Below are positions 5,635-30,858 of a stretch of DNA of 64,000 nt, piece after piece. The DNA comes from Paeniglutamicibacter sulfureus (GTDB lineage Bacteria > Actinomycetota > Actinomycetes > Actinomycetales > Micrococcaceae). A model generated the notes under the pieces. That model saw only the letters and a list, made by a program, of their open reading frames with translations, made no database searches and was not told the origin of the DNA. Where the stretch lies: contig NZ_JAULBL010000001.1 in NCBI RefSeq assembly GCF_030512175.1, forward strand, positions 806,001-870,000, read 5' to 3'. Every line of letters begins with the position of its first letter. Position 1 is the first letter of the stretch. A program made the position numbers and the translations under genes.

Positions 5635-5662
5635 GGGATTGGCTCCTTGGTTCCTTGCGCTG

Positions 5663-6718: not shown

Positions 6719-6790
6719 GATGTGAATTACTTTCCGTTGGTCCGTGGTGGCGGTGGTTTAATCCACCGCCACCACGTGGGTCTTTGACTG

Positions 6791-8122: not shown

Positions 8123-9118
8123 TTAGCGGAGGCCTTCCTCGGCGAACTTCAGCACGGCCTTTGCGTTGTCCGTGTCCACAATGCTCGGGCCAGTCGGCAC
8201 CGGCTGCCCACCACCAAGCGCAAAGCCGCCCACGGAATCGAGCCAAATCGCGTCGATCGACTCATAGCCCTGGAGCCACGGCTGCTGATCAACAGTGAAG
8301 AGGATCTCGCCGTCGACGATCTTCTGGGCCATTTCGGCATTCATGTCAAAGGATGCGACCTTGGCCGAGCTATTGGCTTCGGCAACTGATTTCAGCAGCG
8401 TCAGGCTGATGGGCGCACCCAGCCCGATGATGACGTCCACGTCTTTCGATGTTTGCAGCTTCGCGGTCGTCGTCGACTGCACCTGGGTCATGTCGGTGCC
8501 CTGGACGTAAAGCACCTCGGTGGCGGGGATCTTGGACTTCACCCCGGCGCAGCGCGCCTCGAGCCCCACGTGCCCCTGGACCTGGATGACGCAAATGGGC
8601 TTCTTGTAGTTCTCTTCGAGAAGCTTTTGCCCCACGGCCTCTCCGGCTGCACGTTCGTTGGAGCCGAAATTCGCGAAGGCACCCAACTCCTTGTAGCGGT
8701 CCTCGCCGCCGTTGAGGCTGGTGATGGGAATGCCCGCCGCCTTCGCCTTGGCCAAGGCGCCGGCCACGGCGTCCGGCTTGGCCAGGGTCACGGCGATGCC
8801 GTCAACGCCCTGGTCCACGGCCTGCTCGATGAGCTGGGCCTGGTTCCCGCCCTCGGGGTCACTGAGGTACTGCAGGTCGATGTTGTCCTTGGCAGCCGCG
8901 GCCTCCGCACCCTTGCGGACAATGTCCCAGAAGGTGTCCCCGGCCGGGGCGTGGGTGATCATCGCAACCTTGAGACGCGGGGTGTCGGCGACGGCACCCT
9001 GTGCCGAGGCGTCCGGCTCGGGGGCGCGCCCGCCCTGACTGGAACAGGCGGTGAGGCCGAGCGCGGGAATCAGCAAGAGCGCGGCCGAAGCCGTGCGCCA
9101 GGAAAATTTTCTGGACAT
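8123..9118 (-). CDS. Sugar-binding lipoprotein of ABC importer (copy 2)
   Basis: A 331-residue lipoprotein, exactly the same length as the downstream copy 1 and similar throughout, clearly a tandem duplicate. The signal peptide starts MSRKFSWRTASAALLL and ends in lipobox LTAC. The ATG at 9118 has GAGGAG nine bases upstream. Differences cluster in the linker after the lipobox and in scattered surface positions, while DTFWDIVRKGAE, VDGIAVTLAKP and VDQQPWLQGY are shared. It has its own promoter with the same operator. Two binding proteins feeding one permease suggest two related ligands. Confidence 0.9.
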   Translation of the reverse strand: MSRKFSWRTASAALLLIPALGLTACSSQGGRAPEPDASAQGAVADTPRLKVAMITHAPAGDTFWDIVRKGAEAAAAKDNIDLQYLSDPEGGNQAQLIEQAVDQGVDGIAVTLAKPDAVAGALAKAKAAGIPITSLNGGEDRYKELGAFANFGSNERAAGEAVGQKLLEENYKKPICVIQVQGHVGLEARCAGVKSKIPATEVLYVQGTDMTQVQSTTTAKLQTSKDVDVIIGLGAPISLTLLKSVAEANSSAKVASFDMNAEMAQKIVDGEILFTVDQQPWLQGYESIDAIWLDSVGGFALGGGQPVPTGPSIVDTDNAKAVLKFAEEGLR

Positions 9119-9261
9119 GGGAATGCTCCTCGAAATGAAAGTGAATTGATTGCGATTGCGATTGCCTCGGGAACTGGCAGGTGTGTGCGGCGGGACCTCG
9201 GGTCGGCCACTCGTTCGTTCACAATCGAGCATGATTTGTTAATTTTGAGAAGTCAATAGAT

Positions 9262-13799: not shown

Positions 13800-14693
13800 T
13801 TGACAGATTGGGTATATCCGGCCGGAACAGCCATCGACGGAGCATGGCAAACATCCATCGGCGCAGCGGATTCGCAGCTGGATGTCGCCGGCTGGGCGCA
13901 CACCGGCATCAAGATTGCGCAGCTTTCACCCGGCGAATCACTATCGATGCCTGCAGCGGCGGAGGAACGCATCATCGTCCCACTGCAAGGGGCCTTCACC
14001 GCCGCGGTTGACGGTCAGGACCATGAACTTGCGGGGCGCTCCTCGGTGTTTCACGGGCCTTCGGACGTCCTTTACACCGGCATCAACACCGCGGTAACGG
14101 TCTCTTCGGTGGCCGGTGGCCGCTTTGCCGTCGCTCTTGCACCTGCCGAGGCCGCCTACCCCACACGACTGGTAACGGCGGCCCAGACGCCGGTGGAACT
14201 TCGCGGATCGGGCAACTGCTCCCGGCAGGTCCACAATTTTGGCACGCCCGCGGCGCTGGAGGCCGACCGTTTCATTGTCTGCGAGGTCATCACCCCGGCA
14301 GGCAACTGGTCTTCCTATCCACCGCACAAACACGACGAGGAAAAAGAGGGAGAAACCAACCTCGAGGAGATCTACTACTTCGAGACCCGGGTGGCGAAGG
14401 ATTCCCCGGCACCTGAGACAACCGACCCCATCGGATACGCCCGCGTCTACGCCTCGGATGGGCGACCCATCGACGTGACCACGGAGGTGCGCACCGGTGA
14501 CGTGGTCTTGGTTCCCTACGGCTGGCATGGTCCGGCCATGGCGGCCCCGGGCTACGACCTGTACTACCTCAATGTCATGGCCGGGCCGGGCCGGGTGCGC
14601 GAGTGGCTGATCAGCGACGACCCGCACCACGGCTGGGTCCGCGGCACCTGGAACGAGGAATCGATCGACCCACGTCTGCCTTTCACACCGTAG
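13800..14693 (+). CDS. iolB: 5-deoxy-glucuronate isomerase
   Basis: A 297-residue double-cupin protein matching IolB, which converts 5-deoxy-glucuronate to 5-dehydro-2-deoxygluconate between the IolD and IolC steps. Recognisable segments are YPPHKHDEE near 176-184 with metal-binding His and Glu, LEEIYYFE near 191, and VLVPYGWHGP near 236, all IolB hallmarks. The start is TTG at 13800 with AAAGGG about 7 nt upstream. It directly follows iolR and is separated by about 23 kb from the rest of the iol pathway genes, which lack their own iolB. A strong terminator follows. Confidence 0.93.
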   Translation: MTDWVYPAGTAIDGAWQTSIGAADSQLDVAGWAHTGIKIAQLSPGESLSMPAAAEERIIVPLQGAFTAAVDGQDHELAGRSSVFHGPSDVLYTGINTAVTVSSVAGGRFAVALAPAEAAYPTRLVTAAQTPVELRGSGNCSRQVHNFGTPAALEADRFIVCEVITPAGNWSSYPPHKHDEEKEGETNLEEIYYFETRVAKDSPAPETTDPIGYARVYASDGRPIDVTTEVRTGDVVLVPYGWHGPAMAAPGYDLYYLNVMAGPGRVREWLISDDPHHGWVRGTWNEESIDPRLPFTP

Positions 14694-14905: not shown

Positions 14906-15838
14906 TCAAGCCACCTCGGGGGCCAATACGATGTCGAATCGCACCCTTGACCAGTCGCTGTCCTCGAGTTCGCGTCCGTCGGGCACCGGAGTGCCCGGGA
15001 GTTGGTGGTCGAAGTCCTTGACGAGGCTGTCCTTGACGCCAAAAACGGTGTCGGACTTGATCAGTTCGTCGCCGCGCACGAAAATATGCGTCACCAGGGT
15101 GCGGAAACCGGGGGCAGTCACCATGAAATGAAGATGCGATGCCCGCATGGGCGACCGGCCGGTGGCTTCCAGCATCTTGCCGACCGGGCCGTCGTGTGGA
15201 ATCGGGTACGGAGTTGGCGTCAGGCCCCAGAAGTTGTAGCTCCCTGCCTCGTCGCTAAAGAGGTGTGCCCGGCCCGAAACCCGGTCATCGGTGTACTGGA
15301 CATCGTAGAATCCGTCTTCATCGGCCTCCCACACCTCAATGCGTGCGTTGGGAATGGCGTTTCCCTCCACATCCTTGACGCTGCCTTCCACCCAGCAGGG
15401 CTGTCCGACACCGGCGCCGGCAATGTCGCCGCCATTGGCGATGAGGGGGGCATCGTCAACAAAGAACGGCCCGAAGACGGTGGCCTCGGTGGCGTTGCCC
15501 ACGGCTTCGTTGTTGACGTTGATCGTTTGCATGGAAGCGCCCAGAACATCCGAGAGCAGGATGAACTCCTGGCGCCGGTCGTCGGTGATGTGGCCGACCG
15601 CGGTGAGAAATTCAATGGACCTTTCCCACTCGGCTTCGGTGAGCCGGACCTCGCGGATGAAGGCGTGCAGGTGGCGCACCAGTGACTGCATCAATTGCTT
15701 GGTCCGCGGCTCGGTGCATTGTTCGAAAGACCGGAGAACATTTTCGATCAGTCGTACTTCAACGTCCATCTGCGCCGGGGAAATTGCCGCCCGGCGGGCT
15801 TCGTCCGCTGTGCGTGCTACTTCAATTGAACTGCTCAT
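14906..15838 (-). CDS. Intradiol dioxygenase, hydroxyquinol 1,2-dioxygenase type
   Basis: A 310-residue intradiol ring-cleavage dioxygenase with the N-terminal catechol-dioxygenase helical domain. The Fe(III) ligands of the family are visible: Tyr in DGFYDVQY, Tyr in TPTPYPIP, and the two His of [17 protein letters not shown] and VWEADEDG are typical. The sequence resembles hydroxyquinol dioxygenases more than catechol ones, and the maleylacetate reductase gene in the same operon supports that: the product of hydroxyquinol cleavage is maleylacetate. The ATG at 15838 has GAGGAGG upstream; the longer frame is rejected. It is the last gene of the minus-strand operon that begins with an ABC importer. 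Confidence 0.88.
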
Positions 15839-15880
15839 GTTGTTTCCTCCTCTTAGTTGGTGGCCATGCACCAAAGGTGT

Positions 15881-16819
15881 TTACGGCTGTGAAGCTTCAT
15901 CAAGAAGCTGCACTTCGGCTTCGGTGAGGGTCAGGTGCATGTTGGCCACCAGGGGCATCAGCTGTGCCACGGTGCGTGCACTGGCGATCGGCGCGGTGAT
16001 CCCGGGTTTTGCCCTGAGCCAGGCCAGGGCAATCGGGGCGAAGGGGCACGTCCGGTCGGCCGATACCTGCGCGAGGGCGTCAAGAACATTTTCTCCACGA
16101 GCCGTCAAATACCGGCCTGCGTCGGCGGCCCGAACGCTGTCGACCTCGGCCGTGCCACGATATTTCCCGGTCAGGAATCCGTGCGCGAGCGAATAGTACG
16201 GAAAGACGTCTAGGGAGTGTTTTTGCGCCAGCGGTAGGAGCGATGCCTCGACGTCGCGTTCCATGAGATTGTAGTGGGGTTCGAGGGCCACGGGAAGGGG
16301 GAAGCTTTCGCGTTCGCTGATCTCAAGCCACTGGGCGATCCGCTCCGGTGAATAGTTGGAGATGCCGATGGAGCGGATCTTGCCTTGGTCGACGAGCCCC
16401 GACATTGCCTCGATGCTTTCCACCAGAGGGGTGGACGGGTCATCGAAATGTGCGTAGTAGATGTCGAGGTAATCGAGCCCGAGTCTGGTCAACGATCCGT
16501 CGATGGCTGCGTTGATTGTCGCCGGAGCCATCCCCGAGAGCTGCGGATGGTGACTCACCTTCGAGGCCACCAGGATTTTGTCACGGTCATCGCGTTGCGC
16601 CAGCCACGACCCAATGATGGTTTCGGCCTCGCCGCCCGAGTTCCCTTCGGCCCAGAACGAGTACGAGTCAGCGGTGTCAATGAAGTTCCCGCCCATCTCC
16701 ACGTACCCGTCCAGGATCCGGTGGCAGACCTCGACATCGGCCGTCCAGCCAAAAACGTTGGTGCCGAGCACCAGGGGTGCTACCTTGATTTGTTGTGAAA
16801 CTGCTAGCTGTGAAGACAT
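15881..16819 (-). CDS. Aldo/keto reductase
   Basis: A 312-residue NADPH-dependent aldo/keto reductase. The catalytic tetrad is visible as Asp and Tyr in FIDTADSYS, Lys in VASKV and His in YYAHFDD; ISNYSPE and the C-terminal IASARTVAQL segment form the cofactor site. It lies between maleylacetate reductase (96 bp) and the dioxygenase (42 bp) in one operon. Classical hydroxyquinol pathways do not need such a reductase, so it may act on a carbonyl intermediate of the upper pathway. Substrate unknown. Confidence 0.85.
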   Translation of the reverse strand: MSSQLAVSQQIKVAPLVLGTNVFGWTADVEVCHRILDGYVEMGGNFIDTADSYSFWAEGNSGGEAETIIGSWLAQRDDRDKILVASKVSHHPQLSGMAPATINAAIDGSLTRLGLDYLDIYYAHFDDPSTPLVESIEAMSGLVDQGKIRSIGISNYSPERIAQWLEISERESFPLPVALEPHYNLMERDVEASLLPLAQKHSLDVFPYYSLAHGFLTGKYRGTAEVDSVRAADAGRYLTARGENVLDALAQVSADRTCPFAPIALAWLRAKPGITAPIASARTVAQLMPLVANMHLTLTEAEVQLLDEASQP

Positions 16820-16915
16820 GGTCCAACTCCAGAAAGTACGGGGGTGCGCCAGGAGCGCACAAGGGATGCTTGGCGCGCCGCGTCCCGACCTGAACGCCGC
16901 ACTGGTCTGAGGTGG

Positions 16916-17995
16916 CTAGGCCGAAGGATTTTCACGTGGCTTGTCCCCTGCCCAGGCATCACGAAGGATCCCTCGAACCGCGGCCAGATCAATGGGGCGG
17001 GGGTTGCCGTAGGAGTAGCTGGTGACTTCCTCGGCAATCCGCTCGATGTCTTCCTCGAGCATTCCCAGCTCGGCCAGCGACCGGGGGGCTCCGAGTTCCT
17101 CGGCCAGGTCCCACAATGCCAGTGCCGGATCCTCCACATCCCCCAGGGCCCGGGACAGTGCCTGTTTCGCCTGCGAGGCGGCCGGCTGGTTGAAGGCCAA
17201 CGCGTAGGGCAAGACCACCGTGTGGGTCTGGGCATGGGGAAGGTTCAGGGTTCCGCCCAGTGCGTGGCAGAGCTTGTGGTGAAGCGACATCGTCGTCGCC
17301 CCGAGGCAAGCGCCGCAGAGCCACGACCCGTACAGGGCATTGCTCCGGGCTTCCAGGTCGGCGGGGTCCTTCACGATGAAAGGCAGCGCCTCGACCAGGG
17401 CGCGGACCCCGTCTTCGGCCATCAGGGAGATGATGGGGGTCGCATCCGGTGCGTAGAGGGCTTCGACCGCGTGCGCAATGGCATTGATGCCGCTGGTCAC
17501 CGACATGGCTGCCGGCAATGTTGCGCTCAGTTCCGGGTCGTAGACGACGCTGCGCGGAAGCACCCGGGGATCCCTGCCGGTCTCCTTCCGTCCATTGGTC
17601 GTCAGGCCCCAGACGGGGGTCATTTCCGAGCCCGCATACGTTGTGGGAACGGCGACAATCGGCAGGTCGTGGTTCAGGGCGATGGCCTTGCCCAGGCCGA
17701 TGGCCGAGCCCCCGCCCACGGTGACGCAGCCGTCGGCGCCCACCCGTGCGGCCTCGTCGCTGGCGCGTTTCGCTGCTTCGGCGGGCACGTGCATCACCGC
17801 TTCGGCCAGTACGCCCACGGCGCGCGAGCCGAGTACCTGGGCGATTTGGTCTCCGGTGTCCTTCTGCTCGGGTGAGCACAGGACCAGGACCCGCTTCAGT
17901 CCTAGGTGGTCAAGCTCGGCCGGCAATTCGGAGAGCGATCCGGCTCCGAACCGGACTCGCATGGGAAGGGCGTCATAGGTGAATTGCGTGGTCAT
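16916..17995 (-). CDS. Maleylacetate reductase
   Basis: A 359-residue iron-containing-alcohol-dehydrogenase superfamily protein matching maleylacetate reductases, which reduce maleylacetate to 3-oxoadipate with NAD(P)H. Key segments are VTVGGGSAIGLGKAIAL (cofactor loop), PTTYAGSEMTPVWG, and the His-rich HHKLCHALGGTLNLPHAQTH region. With the dioxygenase at 14906 it completes the lower hydroxyquinol pathway. It begins 86 bp after the ABC permease gene, so it is probably cotranscribed with the importer. Genes for the 3-oxoadipate CoA-transferase and thiolase are not in this window. Confidence 0.92.
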   Translation of the reverse strand: MTTQFTYDALPMRVRFGAGSLSELPAELDHLGLKRVLVLCSPEQKDTGDQIAQVLGSRAVGVLAEAVMHVPAEAAKRASDEAARVGADGCVTVGGGSAIGLGKAIALNHDLPIVAVPTTYAGSEMTPVWGLTTNGRKETGRDPRVLPRSVVYDPELSATLPAAMSVTSGINAIAHAVEALYAPDATPIISLMAEDGVRALVEALPFIVKDPADLEARSNALYGSWLCGACLGATTMSLHHKLCHALGGTLNLPHAQTHTVVLPYALAFNQPAASQAKQALSRALGDVEDPALALWDLAEELGAPRSLAELGMLEEDIERIAEEVTSYSYGNPRPIDLAAVRGILRDAWAGDKPRENPSA

Positions 17996-18081
17996 TGAAT
18001 GGACTCCTCCAGGGGATACTTCGTATGCAAGGTGTTTCCGGGTCCGCCGTCGGTGGCATTCCGGAAGTGGTGTTCGCGGGT

Positions 18082-19314
18082 TTAGTGTGCCCCGGCGCGG
18101 CGCTTGTTCCAGATGTCAAAGGCCACCGCGAGCAGGAGCACCAGCCCCTTGACGACGGACTGCAGGGACTGGTCGATGCCCATCAGCTGCATGCCGTTGC
18201 TCATGACGGCCATGATCAGGCCTCCGGCCATGGCACCGACGACCTTTCCGACGCCACCGGTGACAGCGGCGCCGCCGATGAAGGCCGCCGCGATGGCATC
18301 GAGCTCGAACATGTTCCCGGCACCGGGCTGGGCTCCATTGGTGCGCGAGGAAAAGACGATGCCGGCCACGGCCGAGAGCAGTCCCATGTTGACGAAGATC
18401 CAGAAGTTCACGGCACGGACCTTGACGCCCGAGAGCGAGGCGGCGGCCAGGTTGCCGCCAATGGCGTAGATCTGGCGACCGAAAACGGTGTGCTGCATCA
18501 TCATGGTGTAGGCCATGATCAGGACGGCCAGCATGATCAACACGACCGGCAGTCCGCGCGCCGAGGCCAGCTTCCAGGCGAATGCCATCACGAGCACTCC
18601 CACGGCCAGGATCTTGAGGGCAAACATTGACAGGGGCGGGACCGGCTGGTGGTAGCCCATGCGGGCCTTGCGCGAGCGGTATTGGCTCACGGCGAACCCT
18701 GCGACACCGAGGGCGAAGACGACCAGGGTGAAGACGTCGTATCCGTTTCCGCCGAGCCACCCGTTGATGAATCCGGAGGCGATGACCCCGTATCCTTCGG
18801 GGAATGGTGAAAGCGAGACATTGTCTAGGACGAAGAGGGTCAGGCCCCGGAAGAGGAGCATGCCGGCAAGGGTCACGATGAAGGCCGGAATGCCGACGTA
18901 GGCTACCCAGAAGCCGTGCCAGGCACCGATCAGCAGCCCGGCGGCCAGCGCCGCCAGGACACCTACCCACCAAGGCATCCCGAACTTGATCACCGTGATG
19001 GCCGAGATGGCGCCGGTCAAGGCCACGACGGAGCCGACCGAGAGGTCGATGTGCCCGGCGATGATCACGATGACCATGCCGATGGCCAGGACCAGGATGT
19101 AGGAGTACTGCAGGACGATGTTGGTGATGTTGCCGGCCGACAGTGAAGCCCCGCCGGTGATGAGGGCGAACAGGGCGACCAGTGCCACGAGGGCGACATA
19201 GATCCCGCTGGTGCGCAGGTTGCGGGTCATGGCAAGGCGAACGTCGTCCATGCCGTTTTTTCGGGGAGGCGGTGCAACGGAGCCCATGGGTCCGCGCGGG
19301 GCTGTGACAGTCAT
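18082..19314 (-). CDS. Multiple-sugar ABC transporter permease (GguB/XylH type)
   Basis: A 410-residue membrane permease of the xylose/multiple-sugar importer class with about ten to twelve hydrophobic segments and the family segment [16 protein letters not shown]. It starts with ATG overlapping the ATPase stop by 4 bp (ATGA), so the two are coupled. It is followed by maleylacetate reductase, an unusual neighbour for a sugar permease. Confidence 0.9.
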
Positions 19315-20849
19315 CCTATTGCTTCCTTTTCTTTGGTCATGAGGGTCATGAGTCTTTCTTCAGTTGCTTCCGCTACCGGGAGTTCGCCGGTGATCCGTCC
19401 ACCGGAGAGCGCATAGATCCGGTCACAGGTGCCCAGCAGTTCCAGTAGGTCCGAGGAAATCACCACGACGGCCTTGCCTGATTCCACGAACTCGTTGATC
19501 AGGGTGTAGATCTCGAACTTCGCGCCCACATCGATCCCCCGGGTGGGTTCATCGATGATCAGCACCTCCGGGCCAGTCAGCAGCCACTTGGACAGGACGA
19601 CTTTCTGCTGGTTGCCGCCCGAGAGCTTCCCGACCACCGATTGGACGTTCGGGGCCTTGATCCGCATCGAATCCATCGAGTGCCTGGCGAGCTTCGCTTC
19701 CAGGTTCGCGTCCACGAATCCCCGCTTGGCCAGCTTGGGCAACGCCGCCCCGGAGATGTTGCGGGCAATCGTATCGAGCAGGTTCAGACCCAGTTGTTTC
19801 CGGTCCTCGGTCACATACGCCAACCCGTGGCCGATCGCCTCGGCCACCGTGCGGGGGGCAACGGGATTGCCGTGCATCAGCGCCTGTCCGGAGATGAAGC
19901 GACCGTAGGAGCGTCCAAAGACGCTCATGGCCATTTCGGTGCGCCCGGCACCCATGAGGCCAGCGATGCCCACGACTTCGCCGGCGCGCACCTGGAAGGA
20001 GGCACCGTCAACCACGAGCCTGTCCTGTTGCGGGTGGCGCACCGTCCAGTCCCGGACCTCCAGCACCACCTCGCCGGGGGTCGGGTTCCGTTCCGGGTAG
20101 AAGGATTCGAGGTCCCGGCCCACCATGCTGCGCACAATGCGGTCCACGTTGACCTCGGGCGCGGCCATGTCCAGTGTTTCGACGGTCTGTCCGTCACGGA
20201 TCACGGTCGTGCGGTTGGCCGTTGCCTCGATCTCGTTGAGCTTGTGCGAAATGATGATCGAGGTGATTCCCCGTTCCTGTAGTGCGCGCACCAGGCCGAG
20301 CAAATGGGCGGAGTCGTTGTCGTTCAGGGCCGCCGTCGGCTCATCCAAGATCAGGAGCTTGACGTCTTTGGCCAGTGCCTTGGCAATTTCCACCAGTTGC
20401 TGCTTGCCGACGCCCAATTGCGCGACCGGGGTCGTTGATTCTTCGTGGAGCCCCACACTCTGGAGCAGCTGCGTGGCCTCGGCATGGGTCCTGTGCCAAT
20501 CGATCAATCCCCCAGTGCGTCGGCGTTCGTTGCCCAGGAAGATGTTTTCGGCAATCGACAGGTGGGGAACCAACGCCAATTCCTGGTGGATGATGACGAT
20601 TCCTGCACGCTCGGAGTCACGGATGCTCGAAAATTCGCAGATTTCGCCCGCGAAGAGGATTTCACCCCCATAGGTACCATGTGGGTAGACGCCGGAGAGC
20701 ACCTTCATGAGCGTCGACTTGCCGGCGCCGTTTTCGCCACAGATGGCGTGTACTTCTCCGCGCTCCGCGGAGAAGGTGACATCCGCCAGTGCCTTGACAC
20801 CGGGAAAACTCTTGGTGATGGAACGCATTTCCAGTATGTAGTCAGGCAC
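19311..20849 (-). CDS. Multiple-sugar ABC transporter ATP-binding protein (GguA/XylG type)
   Basis: A 512-residue ATPase with two nucleotide-binding domains. The first has Walker [10 protein letters not shown], signature-like LGVGKQQ and Walker [11 protein letters not shown]. The second has the degenerate Walker [10 protein letters not shown] and the strong signature [15 protein letters not shown] with [10 protein letters not shown], the usual arrangement for carbohydrate importers of this class. The start is GTG at 20849 with an AGGA ribosome site. The binding-protein gene is 69 bp upstream. Confidence 0.93.
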
Positions 20850-20918
20850 GGCGCTGTCCTATCGCTTCTCTATACATGGGGATGGGGTGAGGGATTCCTG
20901 GTGGTCGGCAGGGACCCG

Positions 20919-22070
20919 TTAGAGCTGGCCGGCCTTGATCTGTTTCGTGGTGTAGTAGTCGGAGTCCACCAGGAGCTTCTTGATGTTGTCCTTGAAGACC
21001 ACGTCGATCGGCATGAGGTAGGACGGGACCGCTCCGGCACCGTTGTCATACGATGTCGTGTCGTTGAGCTCGGGCTCCTCGCCATTGAGCAGGGCCTGCG
21101 TCGCTTTCACTGCCTGGGCGGCCAGCAACTTGGTGTTCTTGAAGACCGTCGCGTACTGGACATCGTCGTTGATCAGCTTCACCGATGCGATTTCGGCGTC
21201 CTGGCCCGTGGTGATCGGCATGGGTTGTGTTGCCTTGTCATGCTTCGGTCCGTAGCCGGAGTTGCCCAGCGCCGTAATCGCTCCGCGCGCGACGCTGTCG
21301 TTGGGTGTCAGGACGGCATCAAGTGTTGTTCCGTCGGAGTAGCTGGAGGTGATCAAGTTGTCCATGCGGGACTGGGCTTCCTGCTGCGACCAGTCCTTGG
21401 TCGCGATCTGCGACAGCTTCGTCTGGCCCGACTTGATCACGATCGTGCCGTTGTCGATGTATTTCTGCAGCACGGACATGCCGCCGTCGTAGACGAAGGT
21501 TGCATTGTTGTCATCGAGCGATCCACCGAAGAGTTCGACGTTGAACGGGCCCTTGGCCTTTCCCTCGGACCCGTCCTTGTTCAGGATGCCCAGGCCCGTC
21601 AACAATGCCTTGCCCTGTTCGGCTCCGACCTTGTAGTTGTCAAAGGTGACGTAGAGGTCAACATCCGGGCTGTTCCGGATCAACCGGTCGTAGGAAATGA
21701 TGGGTATCTCGGCATTGACCGCGGCTTGGAGCTGCGGCGCCAGGGCCGTGCCGTCAAGCGGGGCAAGGATCAGCAAATCGGCGCCCCGCGTGATCATCTG
21801 GTCCACTTGCTGCTGTTGCGTGGGAATATCGCCGTTCGCATACTGCAGGTCCACTTGGTAGCCGAGGTCCTCCAGCCCCTTCTGGATGGCACGCCCATCG
21901 GTAATCCACCGCTCCTCGTCCTGGCTGGTCAGGGACACCCCGATGCGGGTGTCGGCCGGGTCCTGGCTCTGCACGTTTGTTGCCGCACCGCCTGCGCCCG
22001 TTCCGCCGCAACTTGAAACCAGCAAGGTTGCGGCCACTGCGGCACCAGCCAGAAAAATTCGTCTTTGCAT
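20919..22070 (-). CDS. Multiple-sugar-binding lipoprotein (ChvE type)
   Basis: A 383-residue solute-binding lipoprotein resembling ChvE-type multiple-monosaccharide binding proteins. The signal peptide MQRRIFLAGAAVAATLLV ends in lipobox SSC. Family segments are RIGVSLTSQDEERW, QVDQMITRGADLLILAPLDG and DAVLTPNDSVARGAI. The ATG at 22070 is preceded by GGGAG at 5 nt, so it is preferred over the slightly longer frame. It is the first gene of the operon that also encodes hydroxyquinol cleavage, and is divergent from the double IclR regulator. The class suggests a polyhydroxylated ligand rather than a free phenol. Confidence 0.9.
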   Translation of the reverse strand: MQRRIFLAGAAVAATLLVSSCGGTGAGGAATNVQSQDPADTRIGVSLTSQDEERWITDGRAIQKGLEDLGYQVDLQYANGDIPTQQQQVDQMITRGADLLILAPLDGTALAPQLQAAVNAEIPIISYDRLIRNSPDVDLYVTFDNYKVGAEQGKALLTGLGILNKDGSEGKAKGPFNVELFGGSLDDNNATFVYDGGMSVLQKYIDNGTIVIKSGQTKLSQIATKDWSQQEAQSRMDNLITSSYSDGTTLDAVLTPNDSVARGAITALGNSGYGPKHDKATQPMPITTGQDAEIASVKLINDDVQYATVFKNTKLLAAQAVKATQALLNGEEPELNDTTSYDNGAGAVPSYLMPIDVVFKDNIKKLLVDSDYYTTKQIKAGQL

Positions 22071-22159
22071 GTCTACTCCCAAAGTTTTAAACGAGCTGCT
22101 TGTCGTGGGTGCGTTGCCGCCAGGATCCTATGAAGACTTATAGTCACTAGTGGCATACA

Positions 22160-22176
22160 CTGGACAACGTGTTCAG
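22160..22176. promoter_or_regulatory. IclR-associated inverted repeat CTGGACA-ACG-TGTTCAG
   Basis: Seven-base arms with a 3-bp spacer and one mismatched pair, in the 252-bp gap between the binding-protein gene and the IclR gene. The same element, TTGGACA-CAC-TGTCCAA, is at 23960-23976 before the oxidoreductase operon. It probably coordinates both divergent units. The rest of the gap shows no gene. Confidence 0.55.
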
Positions 22177-22322
22177 ACAGTATCACATGATCTGGATCAC
22201 TGCGAGGGCTGTCGACGGAGAGCGTTGCCGGAATTTTCCCTTTCGAGAGGATCAGGCAAAATTGGACTCATCGGCTCCGCAGGAATGGGTAAGTCGTGAA
22301 GAGACAAGTCAAGGAGCAATAG

Positions 22323-23933
22323 ATGAAACCCGCAGCGAACATGATTCAGCTGGTCATGAAGGCGACGCAGGTGGTCGATGAAATCTCCAACCTCGGACCA
22401 TCGACATCGGCCGAACTGGCCAAGGCCGTGGATGAGCCCCGCCCCTCGGTCTATCGCATTGTTTCCGCCCTTGAGCAGGCGGGCCTGGTAAGGCGCTCCG
22501 AGGACGGACCGGTGGAACTCGGGACACGGATCCTGCATCTCGGGGAGGCCGCTGCAGATGCGCTGATGGACCGGGAAATCCTGGCCGGACAGCTCAACGC
22601 CGTCCAGCGCCAGCTCGGACTCACGGCATCCTTTTGGATCCCGCGCAAGGAGACCGCGGTATGCCTGGAGCAGGTCGACGCCACCGATGTCGACCTCTAC
22701 GGACTCTCCTCCGGACGCATCCTTCCCCTCTATGCGGGGGCGGCATCCCATGTGCTCCTGGCCTTCCAGCCCGAGGAAGTCCTAGACAGCGTGCTGGGCG
22801 CCGCGCCCTACCAACCCTTGTCGTCACGAACCCCGCTTGAGGCCGAAACGCTGCGGAAGCACGTGGAGGAAACCAGACGCCAAGGGTGGCGCCTGGAGGT
22901 CAATGAGGTCGTTGACGGGATTGCCGCCATCAGCTTCCCGGTGCTGAATCCCGATGGCACGGTGTTCGGTTCGCTCACGGCCGCCGGCCTGGTGGACCAG
23001 GTCCTCTCCCTGCAGGGCCAGGCCCGGGACGTGATCGCCCGGGCCGCGCAAACCCTGACCGAATCCATGCGCGACTTCGCGCCCCAACCCACTCTGCGCG
23101 TCCTGAGCACCACCCCCTCCAACAGCACATCGATCATCGCCAAGGCCAATGCGCTCATGGAGGCCCTGGCCAACGAGCGCGTCTGCACCTCCGCCCGACT
23201 GACCGAACTGCTCGACGAGCCGGTAAGTTCGGTCTATCGCATGCTTGCCACCCTCGGCGAAGCCGGCTGGGTCGAACAACTGGGGCCCCGCGGCGCCTTC
23301 CGGATCGGCAGCAAGCTCATCTCGCTGTCCGGCAAATTGCTCAACGATCTTGACCTGCGCCGCGCGGCGGTCCCGGTCCTTCGCTCGATCCATGAGGCCA
23401 CGGGCGAAACGGCCTTCATGTGCATCCGGCGCAACACCCGGGCCGTCTGCATCGAGCGCATCGACGGCAAGCGCGTGAACAGCCGCTTGCTGGCGCTGGG
23501 CGGCTCGCTTCCCCTGCATACCGGAGCGGCTCCCCGCGCCCTCTTGGCCTTCGAGGATCGACAGGCCTGGGAAAGCTACTTCGCCATCGTTTCGCAGAAC
23601 AACGACGTCCAATTCGATGTGCGCTCCCGGACGAAGTTCTACGCGGACCTCGAGGCGATTCGCTCTGCGGGGTACGCCATGAGCGACGACGAGCTGACCC
23701 CGGGCATTGCTGCCATCGGTGCCCCGATCTTTGACCACAAGGGCCACGTGGTCGCATCCCTGTCCGTTAGCGGCCTGCGCGAGGGCATCCTGGCGGAACC
23801 GGAAGGCGCCCAGAGCGTGATCGAGGTTGCCAGGGACGGTGCCCGCAGGCTCTCGGAGTATCTGGGTGCCCCGACCTCTGCGCTCGGCCATGAGCCTTCA
23901 CTGGTTGGCCAGCCTGTCCATTCCGTGACTTGA
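22323..23933 (+). CDS. Double-length tandem IclR-family regulator
   Basis: A 536-residue protein, about twice the usual ~250 residues of IclR regulators. It contains two complete copies of the family fold in one frame. Copy one (about 1-258) has a winged helix (TSAELAKAVDEPRPSVYRIVSALEQAGLV) and an effector domain (LPLYAGAASHVLLAF, VDGIAAISFPV). Copy two (about 270-520) has SARLTELLDEPVSSVYRMLATL, then LPLHTGAAPRALLAF and TPGIAAIGAPIF. An AAGGAG site lies 7 nt before the ATG. IclR proteins bind DNA as dimers or tetramers and often control aromatic catabolism; a built-in dimer would suit the paired TGGACA repeats in the two adjacent promoters. Confidence 0.9.
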   Translation: MKPAANMIQLVMKATQVVDEISNLGPSTSAELAKAVDEPRPSVYRIVSALEQAGLVRRSEDGPVELGTRILHLGEAAADALMDREILAGQLNAVQRQLGLTASFWIPRKETAVCLEQVDATDVDLYGLSSGRILPLYAGAASHVLLAFQPEEVLDSVLGAAPYQPLSSRTPLEAETLRKHVEETRRQGWRLEVNEVVDGIAAISFPVLNPDGTVFGSLTAAGLVDQVLSLQGQARDVIARAAQTLTESMRDFAPQPTLRVLSTTPSNSTSIIAKANALMEALANERVCTSARLTELLDEPVSSVYRMLATLGEAGWVEQLGPRGAFRIGSKLISLSGKLLNDLDLRRAAVPVLRSIHEATGETAFMCIRRNTRAVCIERIDGKRVNSRLLALGGSLPLHTGAAPRALLAFEDRQAWESYFAIVSQNNDVQFDVRSRTKFYADLEAIRSAGYAMSDDELTPGIAAIGAPIFDHKGHVVASLSVSGLREGILAEPEGAQSVIEVARDGARRLSEYLGAPTSALGHEPSLVGQPVHSVT

Positions 23934-23959
23934 CCCTCGCTCATGTGACGTGCAATACT

Positions 23960-23976
23960 TTGGACACACTGTCCAA
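23960..23976. promoter_or_regulatory. Perfect inverted repeat TTGGACA-CAC-TGTCCAA
   Basis: Perfect 7-bp arms with a 3-bp spacer, 26 bp after the IclR stop and 115 bp before the start of the oxidoreductase at 24092. It is the same element as at 22160-22176 and the best candidate binding site of the tandem IclR protein. Confidence 0.65.
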
Positions 23977-24091
23977 TAGATGCGACTAGGTCGGAGTATT
24001 CAACCTGGTTTCCGCATGGCCATGACCCACCAGGACCCGAGCCCCTTCGCAGAACGAAGCGGCTCGGGAAACAGCTACAGGAGAAAACTCG

Positions 24092-25192
24092 ATGAAACCT
24101 ATCGTTGTGGGACTACTGGGAATCACCCACCCGCACGCATCTGCCCGGGTCAGGGCATTGCGTGAAATTGAGAACGTGGAAGTGGTTGCCGCCGCCGACA
24201 CGGATCCACGGTTGGGCTACTTCGCCGAGAAATACGATGTCGAGCTTCGGGACATCGACGGGGTGCTCGACGACGAGCGCATCAACGCCGTCATGATCCA
24301 TTCCAAGAGCAAGGACATGGTCCCCCACGCCCTTCGCGCCCTGGCGGCCGGCAAGTCCGTGGTCGTTGAAAAGCCCGGCGGCGGAACGGTCGAGGACCTC
24401 CTGCAGCTGGCCGAAGCCGAACGAGGGGTCCCCTCGACCCAGGTGGTCCAGGTGGGCTACAACGTGCGCCTCGCCGAATCGATCACCCGGGCAAAGCAAC
24501 TGATCGATGACGGCGCCATCGGCGAGGTCGTCACAGTTTCGGCGCGTGGCGCGGCCATGGTAGGCGAGCATACCACCGAGCACCTGAACCAGCCGGCCGA
24601 CATGGGCGGGGTCCTATGGATCCTGGGTTGCCACATGCTCGATTCGCTGGTCCACATGTTCGGCGCACCGGAGTCCGTCAACGCCCGCGTACACAAGTCC
24701 ACGCGCCTCTCGGATGAAAAAAGCCGGGAAGATTCCGCATCGGTGCTGCTGAACTACCCCGACATGTCCGCCACTTTCAGCTTCGATGGCCACGACAAAC
24801 TCGAATGGTTCGAGAGCTCCCGCATTTTCGTCTACGGAACGCGAGGAATGCTCGAAATCGGCATTCTTCCCCAGCGTTTGCGCGTTTACCTGGACGAGCC
24901 CGCCGCAGGGCTGGCTGCAGGCTGGACCGAGTGGACGGAAAGCCATTTCACCCCGCCCTTCGCGCGGACCGAAAGCAACAAGTTCTCCGAACTTCCGGAG
25001 CTGGAGAACATCAGCAATTTCCGCACCGAGATGCGTGGCTGGGTCAACAGCATGCGCACCGGTGCACCGAATGTCGCCCCGGTATCCGATGCCCTGAGCG
25101 TGGCCCGCATCGTTGATGCCTGCTACCGCTCGAGCAACAACAACGGCGGCATGGCCAACATCGTCGAACCAACACTTATCGAGGTGCCATGA
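24092..25192 (+). CDS. Gfo/Idh/MocA oxidoreductase with atypical cofactor loop
   Basis: A 366-residue member of the Gfo/Idh/MocA family. The catalytic Lys lies in E93-K94-P95, followed by a GGGT stretch. The usual GxGxxG loop is replaced by GLLGITHPHA (7-16), so cofactor binding may differ from its paralogues. GCHMLDSLVHMFG near 188-200 gives the conserved His and Asp. ACAGGAGAAAACTCG precedes the ATG. The downstream TIM barrel start overlaps its stop, so they are translated together. It likely oxidises or reduces a polyol or keto-polyol imported by the divergent ABC system. Confidence 0.82.
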   Translation: MKPIVVGLLGITHPHASARVRALREIENVEVVAAADTDPRLGYFAEKYDVELRDIDGVLDDERINAVMIHSKSKDMVPHALRALAAGKSVVVEKPGGGTVEDLLQLAEAERGVPSTQVVQVGYNVRLAESITRAKQLIDDGAIGEVVTVSARGAAMVGEHTTEHLNQPADMGGVLWILGCHMLDSLVHMFGAPESVNARVHKSTRLSDEKSREDSASVLLNYPDMSATFSFDGHDKLEWFESSRIFVYGTRGMLEIGILPQRLRVYLDEPAAGLAAGWTEWTESHFTPPFARTESNKFSELPELENISNFRTEMRGWVNSMRTGAPNVAPVSDALSVARIVDACYRSSNNNGGMANIVEPTLIEVP

Positions 25193-26070
25193 GCATGCAG
25201 AACAACGAATCCATGAATCCGAACCCGCAGCTGATTGCCACGTGTTGGACCAGCGCCGGGGATGCCGCGCCGCTGGGCCCCACCGAATGCAGCCCGCTGG
25301 CCATTTCTGACCGCATCGCCGCCATTGCAGAAACCGGCTGGGCCGGCATCGGCCTGGTCCATGACGACCTGCTGGCGGCCCGCGACACCATCGGTTATGA
25401 GGAGCTTGGGCGGCAGATCAAGACCGCCGGCCTCGGCATCGTCGAGGTTGAGTTCATCAACGGATGGTGGACCACCGGTGCCGAACGCAAGGCCGCGGAC
25501 AAGGTCCAAGCCGAACTTTTCGAAGCAGCGATCCTGCTGGGCGCCAGGCACATCAAAGTGGGGGCCGGCAACGCCGACGAACCGCTGCCCCTCGAATTGA
25601 TGACCAGCGCATTCTCCGATCTTGCGGATCAGGCGGCCGAGGCCGGCATCCGCCTGGCCCTGGAAGCGACCCCCTTCTCCAACCTGCGCACCACCGCCGA
25701 GGCCATCCAGGTGGTGGACAAGTCCAACAGCGCCTCCGGCGGGCTGATGATCGACATCTGGCACACCGCCAAGTCGGGACTGTCCCACGAAGAACTGTGG
25801 GACATGGTTCCCATGGACCGCGTGTTTGCGGTGGAAATCGACGATGGTTTCCACACCACCGTTGGAACCCTGTTCGAGGACACCATCAACAACCGCGCAT
25901 ACTGCGGCAAGGGCGATTTCGATCCCGCAACCTTCGTCAGGCTGGCCATCGAGGGCGGCTACCAGGGGCCGTGGGGCGTGGAGATCATCTCCCGCGAGCA
26001 CCGGGAAACCCCCATGCGCGAAGGGCTCCAGCGGGCCTTCGACACAGCAATCGCCGCATTCCCCGCCTAG
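25189..26070 (+). CDS. Xylose-isomerase-like TIM barrel (sugar isomerase / dehydratase family)
   Basis: A 293-residue TIM-barrel protein of the family that holds inosose dehydratases, hydroxypyruvate isomerases and epimerases. Segments such as IKVGAGN, RLALEATPFSN, LMIDIWHTAKSG, VFAVEIDDG and WGVEIISREHR carry the Glu, Asp, His and Glu expected for a divalent-metal site. Its ATG overlaps the upstream dehydrogenase stop, and another dehydrogenase follows 89 bp later. A dehydrogenase - TIM - dehydrogenase set is typical of oxidation followed by elimination or hydration. The reaction is not identifiable from sequence alone. Confidence 0.8.
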   Translation: MSMQNNESMNPNPQLIATCWTSAGDAAPLGPTECSPLAISDRIAAIAETGWAGIGLVHDDLLAARDTIGYEELGRQIKTAGLGIVEVEFINGWWTTGAERKAADKVQAELFEAAILLGARHIKVGAGNADEPLPLELMTSAFSDLADQAAEAGIRLALEATPFSNLRTTAEAIQVVDKSNSASGGLMIDIWHTAKSGLSHEELWDMVPMDRVFAVEIDDGFHTTVGTLFEDTINNRAYCGKGDFDPATFVRLAIEGGYQGPWGVEIISREHRETPMREGLQRAFDTAIAAFPA

Positions 26071-26159
26071 CCACCACCGCCACCCGGGTGCACCGGGGTC
26101 CCTCTTCGCCACCCGACGAACCCAGGATCACGCTTCACCGTCCCTGAAAGGACCACAAC

Positions 26160-27176
26160 ATGACTTCACCACGCCCCCTGCGCATGGCACTTTTCGGCTC
26201 CGGCCGCATTGGACAGGTCCACGCCCGCAACCTTGCAGCCCACCCTGACATCGAGCTGGTACTGATTGCCGATCCGTTCATTGACGCCGCCCGCAAGCTT
26301 GCGGAACAGACCGGAGCACGCGCCGTGCAGGACCCGGATGAGGTGTTTGCCGAGCCCGGCCTGGACGCCGTGATCATCGGCTCGCCGACAAGCACCCACG
26401 TCGACCTGATCACCCGCGCAGCGGCCCACGGGCTCGCCGTCCTGTGCGAAAAGCCCATCGACCTGGATCTGGCCACCGTCATGGAATGCCGCGACAAGCT
26501 GAAAGACACCACGGTGCCCATCATGCTCGGCTTCAACCGCCGGTTCGATCCGAGCTTCGCTTCCATCAATTCCCGCGTCGCCGCCGGAGAGATCGGGTCG
26601 TTGGAACAGGTCACCATCATCAGCCGCGACCCGGCCCCGGCACCGCGCGACTACATCGAAACCTCGGGCGGAATCTTCCGTGACATGACCATCCACGACC
26701 TGGACATGGCACGCTTCTTCGTTGAGGACATCGTCGAGGTCACGGCGGTGGGCTCCAACCAGTTCAGCAGCGACATCGAGGAGCTCGGGGACTACGATTC
26801 CGCCGTGGTCACGCTGCGCGGCAGCCGGGGCGAGCTCATCACGATCACCAACTCGCGTCACTGCGCTTACGGATACGATCAGCGGCTGGAGGCCTTCGGA
26901 TCCGAGGGCATGCTTGAAGCCAAGAACATCACCCCGACCACGGTCCGCAAGTACGGCGCGTCCGGCACCGCCGAGGGCGAGGCCTTCATGCCGTTCTTCC
27001 TGGAGCGCTATGCCCAGGCCTACAAGGCGGAACTGGATGCCTTCGCCATGGCAATCCGTTCGGGGACGCCTTGCTCCCCAAGCTTCGAGGACGGGGTCGC
27101 CGCGCTGGTGCTGGCCGATGCGGCCCTCGAATCCGCGCGCACCGGCAAGACGGTGAAGCTCAAGCCCATCGCTTAG
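26160..27176 (+). CDS. Gfo/Idh/MocA oxidoreductase, IolG-like
   Basis: A 338-residue dehydrogenase close in pattern to inositol 2-dehydrogenases: GSGRIG at 13-18, E97-K98-P99, GFNRRFDPSF near 122 and RDMTIHDLDMARFF near 178-190 with the catalytic Asp/His. GAAAGGACC precedes the ATG. It is the last gene of the IclR-linked plus-strand unit and is followed by a very strong terminator. An IolG-type enzyme here suggests that the substrate of the whole regulon is cyclitol-like. Confidence 0.86.
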   Translation: MTSPRPLRMALFGSGRIGQVHARNLAAHPDIELVLIADPFIDAARKLAEQTGARAVQDPDEVFAEPGLDAVIIGSPTSTHVDLITRAAAHGLAVLCEKPIDLDLATVMECRDKLKDTTVPIMLGFNRRFDPSFASINSRVAAGEIGSLEQVTIISRDPAPAPRDYIETSGGIFRDMTIHDLDMARFFVEDIVEVTAVGSNQFSSDIEELGDYDSAVVTLRGSRGELITITNSRHCAYGYDQRLEAFGSEGMLEAKNITPTTVRKYGASGTAEGEAFMPFFLERYAQAYKAELDAFAMAIRSGTPCSPSFEDGVAALVLADAALESARTGKTVKLKPIA

Positions 27177-29655: not shown

Positions 29656-30858
29656 ATGACCACCACCCCGATCCCGACCGACAGCGCCGCACGCTGGTTC
29701 CGAGCCGAGGACTGCAATCTTGATGACTTCAAGCGCATCACCTCCCAGTGCACGTCCCTGGCCGACTACCCGTATGCCGATGCCGTGGAACAGAATGTGC
29801 TCGTTTACGGACCCCGCCTGCATTCGTACCTTGAATCGACGGACGAACGCGCGGACGTCCAGGCGGAACTGGCCAAGGCGCTGACGGATGGTCCGGGCAT
29901 TGTGGTGTTCAAGGGAGCATTCCCCGATATTTCGGTCGTGGACCGCGCCACACTGGCCTTCAACAAGCTCATCGATGCCCAGAAGGCATCCGGCGTCCAG
30001 GGCGGCGACCACTTCGCCAAGCCCGGGGCAAACGACAGGATCTGGGGTGCCCTGGACAAGCTGGCGCTGGCCGACCCCGCGGTGTTCGCCGAATATTATT
30101 CCTCCGACATCCTTGCCCTGGTGTCGCAGGCCTGGCTGGGACCCAACTACCAGGTGACCTCCCAGGTCAACGTCGTCAACCCCGGGGGTGTGGCGCAGCG
30201 GGCGCACCGCGATTACCACCTGGGTTTCATGTCCGCAACGCAGGCCGGCGCCTACCCTGCGCATGCCCACCTGCTCACCCCGGCGCTCACCTTGCAAGGT
30301 GCCGTCGCGCACTGCGACATGCCGCTGGAATCCGGGCCGACCCTTTACCTTCCGCATTCTCACAAGTACGCGGCCGGCTACGTGGCATTCCACCGCGAGG
30401 ACTTCACCGAGCACTTCCTGCAGCACCATGCGCAGCTGCCCCTGGAGAAGGGAGACGCGGTGTTCTTCAACCCCGCACTCTTCCACGGTGCCGGCACCAA
30501 CGTTTCAACCGACATCAAGCGCATGGCGAACCTGCTCCAGGTCTCCTCGGCCTTCGGCCGCGCCATGGAAACGGTGGACCGCACGGCCATGAGCAAGGCC
30601 CTGTACCCGGTGCTGCTGGAACTCAAGTCCGCGGGGGCCTCCGAGGCCGCCCTGCACAACATCATCGCCGCCTCGGCGGAGGGCTACGCCTTCCCCACCA
30701 ACCTGGATCTGGACCAGCCGATCGGCGGGCTCGCCCCGCAGTCGCAGGCCGAGCTGGTGGCCGAGCACCTCGCGCGCTCCGGATCCCCGGCCGAGCTCAA
30801 CGAGGCCTTGGACGCACAGGGAGCCCGGCGCCTGGGCACCGGGTTCCCTCCGGCCTAG
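29656..30858 (+). CDS. Phytanoyl-CoA dioxygenase (PhyH)-family Fe(II)/2-oxoglutarate oxygenase
   Basis: A 400-residue protein of the PhyH superfamily. The Fe(II) site HxD appears as His-Arg-Asp in QRAHRDYHLGF near 182-184 with a distal His in FHGAG near 276 and a following Arg for 2-oxoglutarate. Such enzymes hydroxylate or demethylate small molecules. GAAAGGACC precedes the ATG. It is divergent from a LacI regulator and converges on a TIM barrel/IolG pair, inside a cyclitol catabolic island. Oxidative removal of a methyl group from an O-methyl-inositol is a speculative role. Confidence 0.8.
   Translation: MTTTPIPTDSAARWFRAEDCNLDDFKRITSQCTSLADYPYADAVEQNVLVYGPRLHSYLESTDERADVQAELAKALTDGPGIVVFKGAFPDISVVDRATLAFNKLIDAQKASGVQGGDHFAKPGANDRIWGALDKLALADPAVFAEYYSSDILALVSQAWLGPNYQVTSQVNVVNPGGVAQRAHRDYHLGFMSATQAGAYPAHAHLLTPALTLQGAVAHCDMPLESGPTLYLPHSHKYAAGYVAFHREDFTEHFLQHHAQLPLEKGDAVFFNPALFHGAGTNVSTDIKRMANLLQVSSAFGRAMETVDRTAMSKALYPVLLELKSAGASEAALHNIIAASAEGYAFPTNLDLDQPIGGLAPQSQAELVAEHLARSGSPAELNEALDAQGARRLGTGFPPA

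Follow-up and report, generated by a model that had tools for sequence, protein, structure and literature searches.

Why would a bacterium keep genes for oxidizing a ring-shaped sugar alcohol beside genes for cleaving a trihydroxylated aromatic ring? The question is raised by a gene cluster of Paeniglutamicibacter sulfureus, at positions 14906–27176 of a 64,000-nucleotide stretch of its genome (assembly GCF_030512175.1, contig NZ_JAULBL010000001.1, 806,001 to 870,000). We call the whole stretch the window and give coordinates within it. A preliminary description, made from the letters of the DNA, proposed a new pathway in which an imported cyclitol is converted to hydroxyquinol (1,2,4-trihydroxybenzene) and the aromatic ring is then cleaved. 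We lean slightly towards such a cyclitol-to-hydroxyquinol catabolic module as the best full explanation. Two parts of it are firmer. It is quite probable that one functional unit joins cyclitol oxidation to hydroxyquinol cleavage, and nearly as probable that the TIM barrel protein of the cluster aromatizes a cyclitol, to either a triol or a tetraol. A deoxy-cyclitol as the true substrate, which formula and chemistry suggest, is a good deal more doubtful.

In the proposed pathway, a ring polyol would enter the cell via a ChvE/GguAB importer (or, in relatives, via an inositol-type sugar porter), and an OxiD-type enzyme would oxidize it to a ketone. A Cg3390-type TIM barrel, perhaps with an OxiC-like protein, would then remove two waters, by enolization and beta-elimination, to give 1,2,4-trihydroxybenzene. 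A dioxygenase would cleave trihydroxybenzene to maleylacetate, and maleylacetate reductase would reduce this to 3-oxoadipate. A tandem IclR repressor would act on TTGGACA-N3-TGTCCAA at both promoters and would be released by trihydroxybenzene. The compound to be aromatized could be 2-deoxyinosose, formed from a deoxy-cyclitol of the quercitol or viburnitol type, or from inositol via dehydration and re-reduction.

All nine genes of the preliminary description are intact open reading frames and in place, as judged from the window's list of reading frames, their coordinates and their translations. The minus strand encodes hydroxyquinol 1,2-dioxygenase (HQD, RhcD2-like, 14906–15838), an aldo/keto reductase (15881–16819, PF00248), maleylacetate reductase (MAR, RhcM2-like, 16916–17995), and the three components of the importer, with intergenic gaps of under 100 bp, as had been noted. 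(We set the start of HQD at the ATG of residue 13 in the open reading frame 14906–15874; the homology searches used 14906–15829.) Divergently, on the plus strand, lie the genes for an OxiC-like Gfo/Idh protein (GFO1, 24092–25192), a Cg3390-like TIM barrel (TIM, 25189–26070), which is our proposed dehydratase/aromatase, and an OxiD-like dehydrogenase (IOLG, 26160–27176). The preliminary description gave the divergent unit as these three genes, and they are present, but the first gene of the unit is one that it did not list: a 536-amino-acid regulator (22323–23933, plus strand).

The ring-cleaving half of the cluster seems secure from sequence matches. HQD (PF00775/PF04444) has as its best match in PDB the hydroxyquinol 1,2-dioxygenase 1tmx (E = 5e-141), while catechol dioxygenases reach E = 9e-28 at best; another relative among the matches, 8r2x, is named 6-chlorohydroxyquinol dioxygenase. 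The iron alcohol dehydrogenase matches 3jzd (E = 1e-123) and 3w5s, "Maleylacetate reductase" (E = 5e-104). Thus both enzymes of the hydroxyquinol lower pathway appear to be present, as the preliminary description had it. The same genome also carries another HQD, 73% identical (L065 13066; G000:C9:1073353-1074225), with no MAR recognized in the fetched stretch.

The importer is of the carbohydrate ABC type that had been described, with a permease (GguB-type, 18082–19314), a double ATPase (GguA-type, 19311–20849), and a binding lipoprotein (ChvE-type, 20919–22082). The permease scores above its curated cut-off (NF040906, 511.7 versus 450 bits), while GguA falls 0.5 bits short (NF040905, 809.5 versus 810) and ChvE 10.7 bits short (NF040907, 449.3 versus 460). 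The binding protein aligns with PDB entries 4wwh and 3urm.

As for the oxidizing half, IOLG fits the IolG-like dehydrogenase of the preliminary description. It scores 401.6 bits with TIGR04380, against a cut-off of 355 bits, and is the sole one above the cut-off among 11 matches in the genome. Its best match in PDB is 3euw, which is OxiD (E = 1e-147), far ahead of the next (3e-83). The Lys-Asp-His triad is retained (EKP and RDMxIHD in 19 of 19 aligned sequences), and the window's protein also contains YGY, which is characteristic of the myo/D-chiro group. We take IOLG to be a putative OxiD-type, NAD-dependent myo/D-chiro-inositol dehydrogenase.

GFO1 is another matter. Where the catalytic Asp is expected, 23 of 24 homologues have Ile and one has Val, and where GxGxxG is expected, GITHPHA is invariant. 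Because both features are missing, GFO1 is probably not the ordinary dehydrogenase that it had been taken for, and perhaps the GFO1/OxiC family is not a redox enzyme at all. The family also has several invariant histidines, and its identities are higher than those for IOLG.

TIM has an AP_endonuc_2 domain and is xylose-isomerase-like. Its best match in PDB is Lmo2234, followed by the QuiC dehydratase 5hmq; a Foldseek search with a predicted structure likewise ranks Lmo2234, IolI and QuiC first (the mean predicted local distance difference test score, pLDDT, is 75.9, with residues 221–242 below 50). The preliminary description called this protein IolE-like, but it does not match the IolE model TIGR04379 at 0.001 and is absent from the six matches to that model in the genome. 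With the QuiC model NF042435, which was built for a two-domain fusion, it scores 58.1 of 1200 bits. We mapped ten active-site residues of QuiC/QsuB (PMC7442255; papers cited by PubMed Central number are cited from excerpts) to TIM via the PDB alignment, with an offset of 2, at which all ten letters agree. Five of the ten pairs are identical (E134-E159, D165-D189, H168-H192, R210-R236 and E239-E265, with QuiC given first) and two are conservative (Q191-E216 and S206-T232). Because of this mapping, it is plausible that TIM carries the machinery for enolization and beta-elimination.

Are the two halves together by accident? We searched 295 genomes from the family with HQD, which matched in 37; fetched stretches of up to 19 kb around the listed HQDs outside the window; and scanned these with the window's proteins. 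Further loci came from scanning genome contigs with an alignment of TIM and from a genus search that started from a Corynebacterium locus (201 genomes, 3 with GFO1). The regulator-GFO1-TIM-IOLG unit, which we call type 1, is found in 21 distinct genomes of Paeniglutamicibacter, Arthrobacter, Sinomonas, Rhodococcus, Mycobacterium and Corynebacterium. (G168, from the window's species, is excluded; L091, L092, L093, L094, L097, L104 and L108 are from the same genomes as L040, L039, L050, L041, L043, L130 and L089, and each was counted once.) HQD adjoins the type-1 unit in 19 of the 21 genomes and MAR in 20, where the presence of HQD, TIM and GFO1 is partly by selection, as the loci were found through searches for those genes. 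One locus (L095) ends at contig ends, which makes HQD and the aldo/keto reductase unscorable there; its genome has an HQD fragment (77%) that starts another contig. Among the 295 genomes, all 12 with GFO1 also have TIM, which occurs in 19 (in G273, the two are on different contigs). As 21 distinct genomes retain the layout, it is beyond chance. Of the 20 scorable type-1 loci, 13 have the aldo/keto reductase and seven do not, so it is dispensable. The type-1 importer is of the ABC type in 12 of the 21 loci and is a sugar porter of the major facilitator superfamily (MFS) in 9.

In a second architecture, type 2, TIM, HQD and MAR are together with other dehydrogenases. There are seven such loci (L045, L089, L105, L106, L107, L109 and L110; L105 and L106 are near-copies), with TIM at 42–44% identity, MAR at 54–65%, HQD, short-chain dehydrogenases and a zinc dehydrogenase. 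The best curated match of the zinc dehydrogenase (tested for L045) is IolM, a scyllo-inosose dehydrogenase, with 134 of 450 bits. GFO1 is found in four of the seven, with 75–77% identity.

We built trees by a quick method from 16 of the 21 type-1 loci (two from Corynebacterium), six of the seven type-2 loci, and 38 (HQD) or 37 (MAR) of 41 ordinary HQD loci. In the HQD tree (60 sequences), the type-1 proteins group with the copy from L045, the remaining five type-2 copies make up a distant clade, and both Corynebacterium copies are placed among ordinary HQDs. TIM is thus accompanied by HQDs from three separate places: one for type 1, one for Corynebacterium, and one for most of type 2. The MAR tree (59 rows) has types 1 and 2, including the window's protein, together and apart from all 37 ordinary MARs, and the Corynebacterium MARs among the ordinary ones. 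Therefore the dioxygenases, and in Corynebacterium MAR as well, were swapped or recruited separately, with the coupling to TIM retained.

The two halves also have operator-like sites in common. The regulator is IhtR/Cg3388-like (by locus comparison and family search) and consists of two head-to-tail IclR copies in a single chain, with 30% identity to each other; across the ten loci compared, the second copy is better conserved. An exact TTGGACA-N3-TGTCCAA with perfect arms (TTGGACA-CAC-TGTCCAA, 23960–23976) lies before GFO1, and a degenerate copy with 3 mismatches, CTGGACAACGTGTTCAG (22160–22176; arms and spacer CTGGACA-ACG-TGTTCAG), lies before the importer and the regulator. A motif scan of the window gave 9 matches with up to 3 mismatches versus 1.8 expected, and 0 of 100 shuffles reached that count; this agrees with the shared inverted-repeat site of the preliminary description. 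Across the genome, the site at 23960 is the single exact one, and there are 24 sites with up to 2 mismatches, versus 9 in a reversed control. Outside Corynebacterium there are 18 type-1 loci; the site on the GFO1 side has up to 3 mismatches in 16 of them and 4 mismatches in the other 2, and the site on the importer/regulator side has up to 4 mismatches in 17; the pattern was derived from the window, so loci from the same genus are not independent. (In random 300-bp pieces of the window, the background is about 2.7% for up to 3 mismatches and about 11.8% for up to 4.) We infer that the tandem IclR protein may bind this motif. Near the cluster, the tandem IclR gene is matched a second time (64–66%) in L042 (at about 3) and in L043 (at about 2392).

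What could the substrate be? Keto-inositols aromatize by enolization and beta-elimination to tetrahydroxybenzenes (PMC5327690, PMC11467972). By our own working, a ketone that adjoins a CH2 group would give 1,2,4-trihydroxybenzene in two eliminations, while a CH2 in other positions would give pyrogallol and a plain inosose would give a tetraol. The regiochemistry that is required, with the ketone beside CH2, therefore points to 2-deoxyinososes. 2-Deoxy-scyllo-inosose yields hydroxyhydroquinone in acid; our literature search found no paper holding both terms. Since the loss of three waters from inositol also leads to the triol's formula, inositol could serve if the product of dehydration were re-reduced. 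Such a re-reduction cannot depend on the aldo/keto reductase, because 7 of the 20 loci lack it.

To look for a ring hydroxylase nearby, we used as queries five hydroxylase-type proteins that occur at ordinary HQD loci: an acyl-CoA-dehydrogenase-like protein, a flavin reductase, and three FAD monooxygenases. They are proxies rather than a domain scan of every open reading frame. None of the five had a match in the 18 distinct type-1 loci compared, and three of the five had none in all 21 type-1 stretches, several of the stretches that we scanned ending at contig ends. In the window, 3–37 kb was scanned, and for that part the preliminary description's statement that no monooxygenase is present agrees with our result. 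Of the seven type-2 loci, only L110 gave a match, which is weak (28%) and lies some 10 kb from the dioxygenase. In contrast, 24 of the 41 ordinary HQD loci had a match to an FAD monooxygenase inside the stretch that was fetched, and 30 had a match to any of the five queries, some of them weak. A PhyH-type oxygenase gene sits between IolG-like genes of the window, at 29656–30858. We considered it as the missing hydroxylase and rejected it, as its homologues are found only in L091 and L092, from the same genus, among 29 loci.

Parts of such a cluster have already been studied in Corynebacterium glutamicum. Myo-inositol raises the expression of genes from its clusters iol1 and iol2; OxiD is a dehydrogenase of myo- and D-chiro-inositol that depends on NAD and has the structure 3EUW; and IolT2 imports inositols (PMC9603128). 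OxiC has Ile in place of the catalytic Asp and an incomplete GxGxxG and is described as not being an inositol dehydrogenase; in the excerpts of this paper, it has no known function, and nor does cg3390, a "putative sugar phosphate isomerase" (PMC9603128). Repression of rhcM2, and by inference of iolT2-rhcM2D2, is due to the IclR protein Cg3388, which leaves the DNA on the iolT2 side with 1,2,4-trihydroxybenzene above 0.05 mM, hydroquinone above 0.5 mM, or indole above 4 mM (PMC7764795). The excerpts of these two papers do not join iol2 and rhcM2D2 metabolically. A cyclitol-type half, whose nearest characterized dehydrogenase (OxiD) acts on inositols, as does IolT2 of the C. glutamicum cluster, is joined to a hydroxyquinol half in a conserved unit with shared operator-like sites and no matched hydroxylase; the C. 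glutamicum repressor answers to trihydroxybenzene. This much of the preliminary description's new pathway stands, but the cluster itself is not new, as it exists in C. glutamicum, where it was studied piecemeal.

Several observations weigh against our proposal. That the enzymes of the cluster produce trihydroxybenzene is a step that we infer. Three of the ten QuiC pairs are changed in TIM (R64-W93, L97-K123 and L136-T161), although the loss of R64 may suit a substrate without a carboxylate, and the TIM family may act as an inosose isomerase. The measured substrates of OxiD are ordinary inositols, whose ketones lead to tetrahydroxybenzenes and not to the triol (PMC9603128, PMC5327690, PMC11467972). 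C. glutamicum tolerates the loss of iol2 by itself, but a strain that lacks both iolG and oxiC-cg3390-oxiD-oxiE no longer grows on myo-inositol (PMC9603128), and therefore OxiD can feed the canonical pathway. Inositol or resorcinol at 5 mM hardly releases Cg3388 from DNA, and rhcM2 RNA with added inositol or resorcinol is comparable to that with indole (PMC7764795). The operator-like site before the oxiC-like gene was not found in any of the three Corynebacterium loci. One Corynebacterium genome (G425, locus L129) has the cyclitol half with no HQD or MAR beside it; it has an HQD only elsewhere, along with HQD pieces (G425:C1:1152883-1153253) that are interrupted by stops. And 17 of the 41 ordinary HQD loci likewise have no match to an FAD monooxygenase, so the absence of a hydroxylase from the cluster is supportive, not decisive.

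As a rival explanation, TIM might be only an inosose isomerase (IolI-like, for D-chiro-inositol) or an inosose dehydratase that serves the canonical pathway. HQD and MAR would then form a separate route for salvaging trihydroxybenzene or hydroquinone from plant phenols, and the transporter and the repressor would be common to both by history. In three genomes (G217, G207 and G234), iolD is less than 6 kb from a relative of TIM that has no HQD; for D-chiro-inositol, C. glutamicum depends on an isomerase that is yet to be identified, and its iol2 supports growth on myo-inositol without iolG (PMC9603128); Cg3388 answers to hydroquinone and indole as well (PMC7764795); and G425 has its cyclitol half without HQD. 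However, separate pathways seem hard to reconcile with HQDs from three places in the tree adjoining TIM, or with the second architecture, which keeps TIM, HQD and MAR together with entirely different dehydrogenases. Also, operator-like sites at both promoters and a repressor of the type that is released by trihydroxybenzene fit best if the cyclitol unit makes trihydroxybenzene. We consider this explanation unlikely.

Alternatively, the aromatic product might be a tetraol. Oxidation of myo- or D-chiro-inositol by the OxiD-type enzyme, followed by two dehydrations, would give a tetrahydroxybenzene (1,2,3,5-, by our working), which the dioxygenase would cleave as a 6-hydroxy-hydroxyquinol, and MAR would reduce a hydroxylated maleylacetate. 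This pathway would not require an extra reduction step and would use the known substrates of OxiD (PMC9603128), and double elimination from inososes does yield tetrahydroxybenzenes chemically (PMC5327690, PMC11467972). The name of 8r2x, a relative of HQD, and the separate clade of the type-1 and type-2 MARs also count in its favour. But the Corynebacterium loci use MARs of the ordinary clade, and the triol is the effector that acts on the Corynebacterium repressor at the lowest concentration, with no tetraol among the compounds listed in the excerpts of that study (PMC7764795). There is also no clear need for such a pathway, because genomes with the cluster already carry iolD. We consider a tetraol less likely still than an isomerase.

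It is improbable that an aromatic compound is turned into hydroxyquinol by a hydroxylase encoded elsewhere, with the inositol-like genes as bystanders. The 17 ordinary loci without a match to an FAD monooxygenase, versus 24 with one, do show that the hydroxylase can lie elsewhere. Yet hydroxylase-type matches were found in none of the 21 type-1 stretches, and the two halves have common operator-like sites and stay together across several genera. Pairs of a Gfo/Idh protein and a TIM barrel elsewhere perform 3-keto-glycoside lyase chemistry, and Foldseek matches of TIM at lower ranks include a 3-keto-glucoside lyase (8tct, rank 39) and DgpB-C (7drd, rank 47), but an imported hydroxyquinol glycoside that is oxidized at C3 of its sugar and split by TIM to free hydroxyquinol is very improbable, given that IOLG is an inositol dehydrogenase by its curated model with OxiD as nearest solved relative, that the OxiC-like protein lacks the catalytic Asp, and that the cluster is linked to inositol genes.

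The cluster is embedded in a region of inositol genes. These include a gene of the canonical pathway that adjoins the cluster, iolB (13800–14693, plus strand; TIGR04378, 272.5 versus 205 bits). Farther away are the ring-opening hydrolase IolD (42081–44027, minus strand; TIGR04377, 814.6 versus 715 bits) and the kinase IolC (44963–45961, minus strand; TIGR04382, 360.9 versus 300 bits). The window also holds IolE-like genes, further IolG-like genes, a rhizopine-type ABC transporter, and MFS sugar porters. Sugar ABC transporter genes at 4693–9232 are near IolE-like and IolG-like genes and include a rhizopine-type binding protein (6791–7897, 188 of 420 bits) and, with a similar start, another protein (8123–9232). 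In other genomes, we found relatives of TIM (36–46% identity) at six loci without HQD, and five of the six adjoin a homologue of this binding protein (65–68%). A further tie between the system and inositol is that iolD is present in all 26 genomes with the cluster that we tested (25 above the cut-off and one fragment), versus 117 of 295 in the family. It is less than 20 kb from the cluster in 7 of 19 type-1 genomes (G000, G126, G074, G111, G037, G163 and G176; four are from one genus). In two of these, G176 (L123 5530-10323) and G163 (L124 5667-10572), the cluster has next to it an IolG-type gene, an MFS sugar porter and a second TIM paralogue (about 68%), with iolD only a few kb away.

If our proposal is correct, then these bacteria make an aromatic compound from a saturated ring sugar alcohol only to degrade it. 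The principle by which quinate is converted to protocatechuate would extend to cyclitols without a carboxylate, such as quercitols, and there would be an enzymatic route from cyclitols to 1,2,4-trihydroxybenzene. Our proposal would also explain why inositol dehydrogenases and a trihydroxybenzene-responsive repressor, which were studied separately, belong to one cluster of C. glutamicum. More generally, whether there is in Actinobacteria a second degradation route for cyclitols that depends on oxygen, with aromatization to a triol or tetraol by Cg3390-type TIM barrels and OxiC-type proteins and ring opening by hydroxyquinol dioxygenase, seems to us evenly balanced. If there is, OxiC, Cg3390 and the iolT2-rhcM2D2 operon would each have a role, and quercitols could be degraded in this way; in the titles and abstracts of open-licence PubMed Central papers, we found none on bacterial breakdown of quercitol and none that links cyclitol catabolism to hydroxyquinol. 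Dehydrative aromatization (in quinate degradation), the cleavage of hydroxyquinol, and, in part, the C. glutamicum cluster were known already; it is their combination that is new to the literature that we searched.

How does the cluster compare with known systems? The canonical IolG-IolE-IolD-IolB-IolC pathway has an IolG-type first step in common with it, and canonical genes are nearby in the window. But TIM does not match IolE, and in our proposal the ring would be aromatized and opened by a dioxygenase, instead of being hydrolyzed by IolD. The hydroxyquinol branch of resorcinol or nitrophenol degradation has HQD and MAR in common with the window, whereas no ring hydroxylase was matched in the cluster and hydroxyquinol would arise from a cyclitol. 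In the quinate/shikimate route, a dehydrogenase acts on an alicyclic polyol from plants, and aromatization by a metal-dependent TIM barrel and cleavage by an intradiol dioxygenase follow. The window's TIM retains E134, D165, H168, R210 and E239 of QuiC/QsuB, but its proposed substrate has no carboxylate, and the product would be hydroxyquinol, not protocatechuate.

In C. glutamicum, iolT2-rhcM2-rhcD2, cg3388 (ihtR) and oxiC-cg3390-oxiD-oxiE match the window in gene set and divergent order (PMC7764795, PMC9603128). We base this orthology on 3EUW, on the described features of OxiC, and on the Corynebacterium relatives (two loci, L128 and L130, have the same order), rather than on the sequence of ATCC 13032. 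OxiD, as 3EUW, is the best match of the window's IOLG; OxiC and GFO1 both have Ile for the catalytic Asp and have both lost GxGxxG. In both systems, an IclR regulator is divergent to the transporter, MAR and HQD, although the window's is a tandem protein. IolT2 is replaced in the window by the ChvE/GguAB importer, the aldo/keto reductase is added, and MAR is of another clade than in Corynebacterium.

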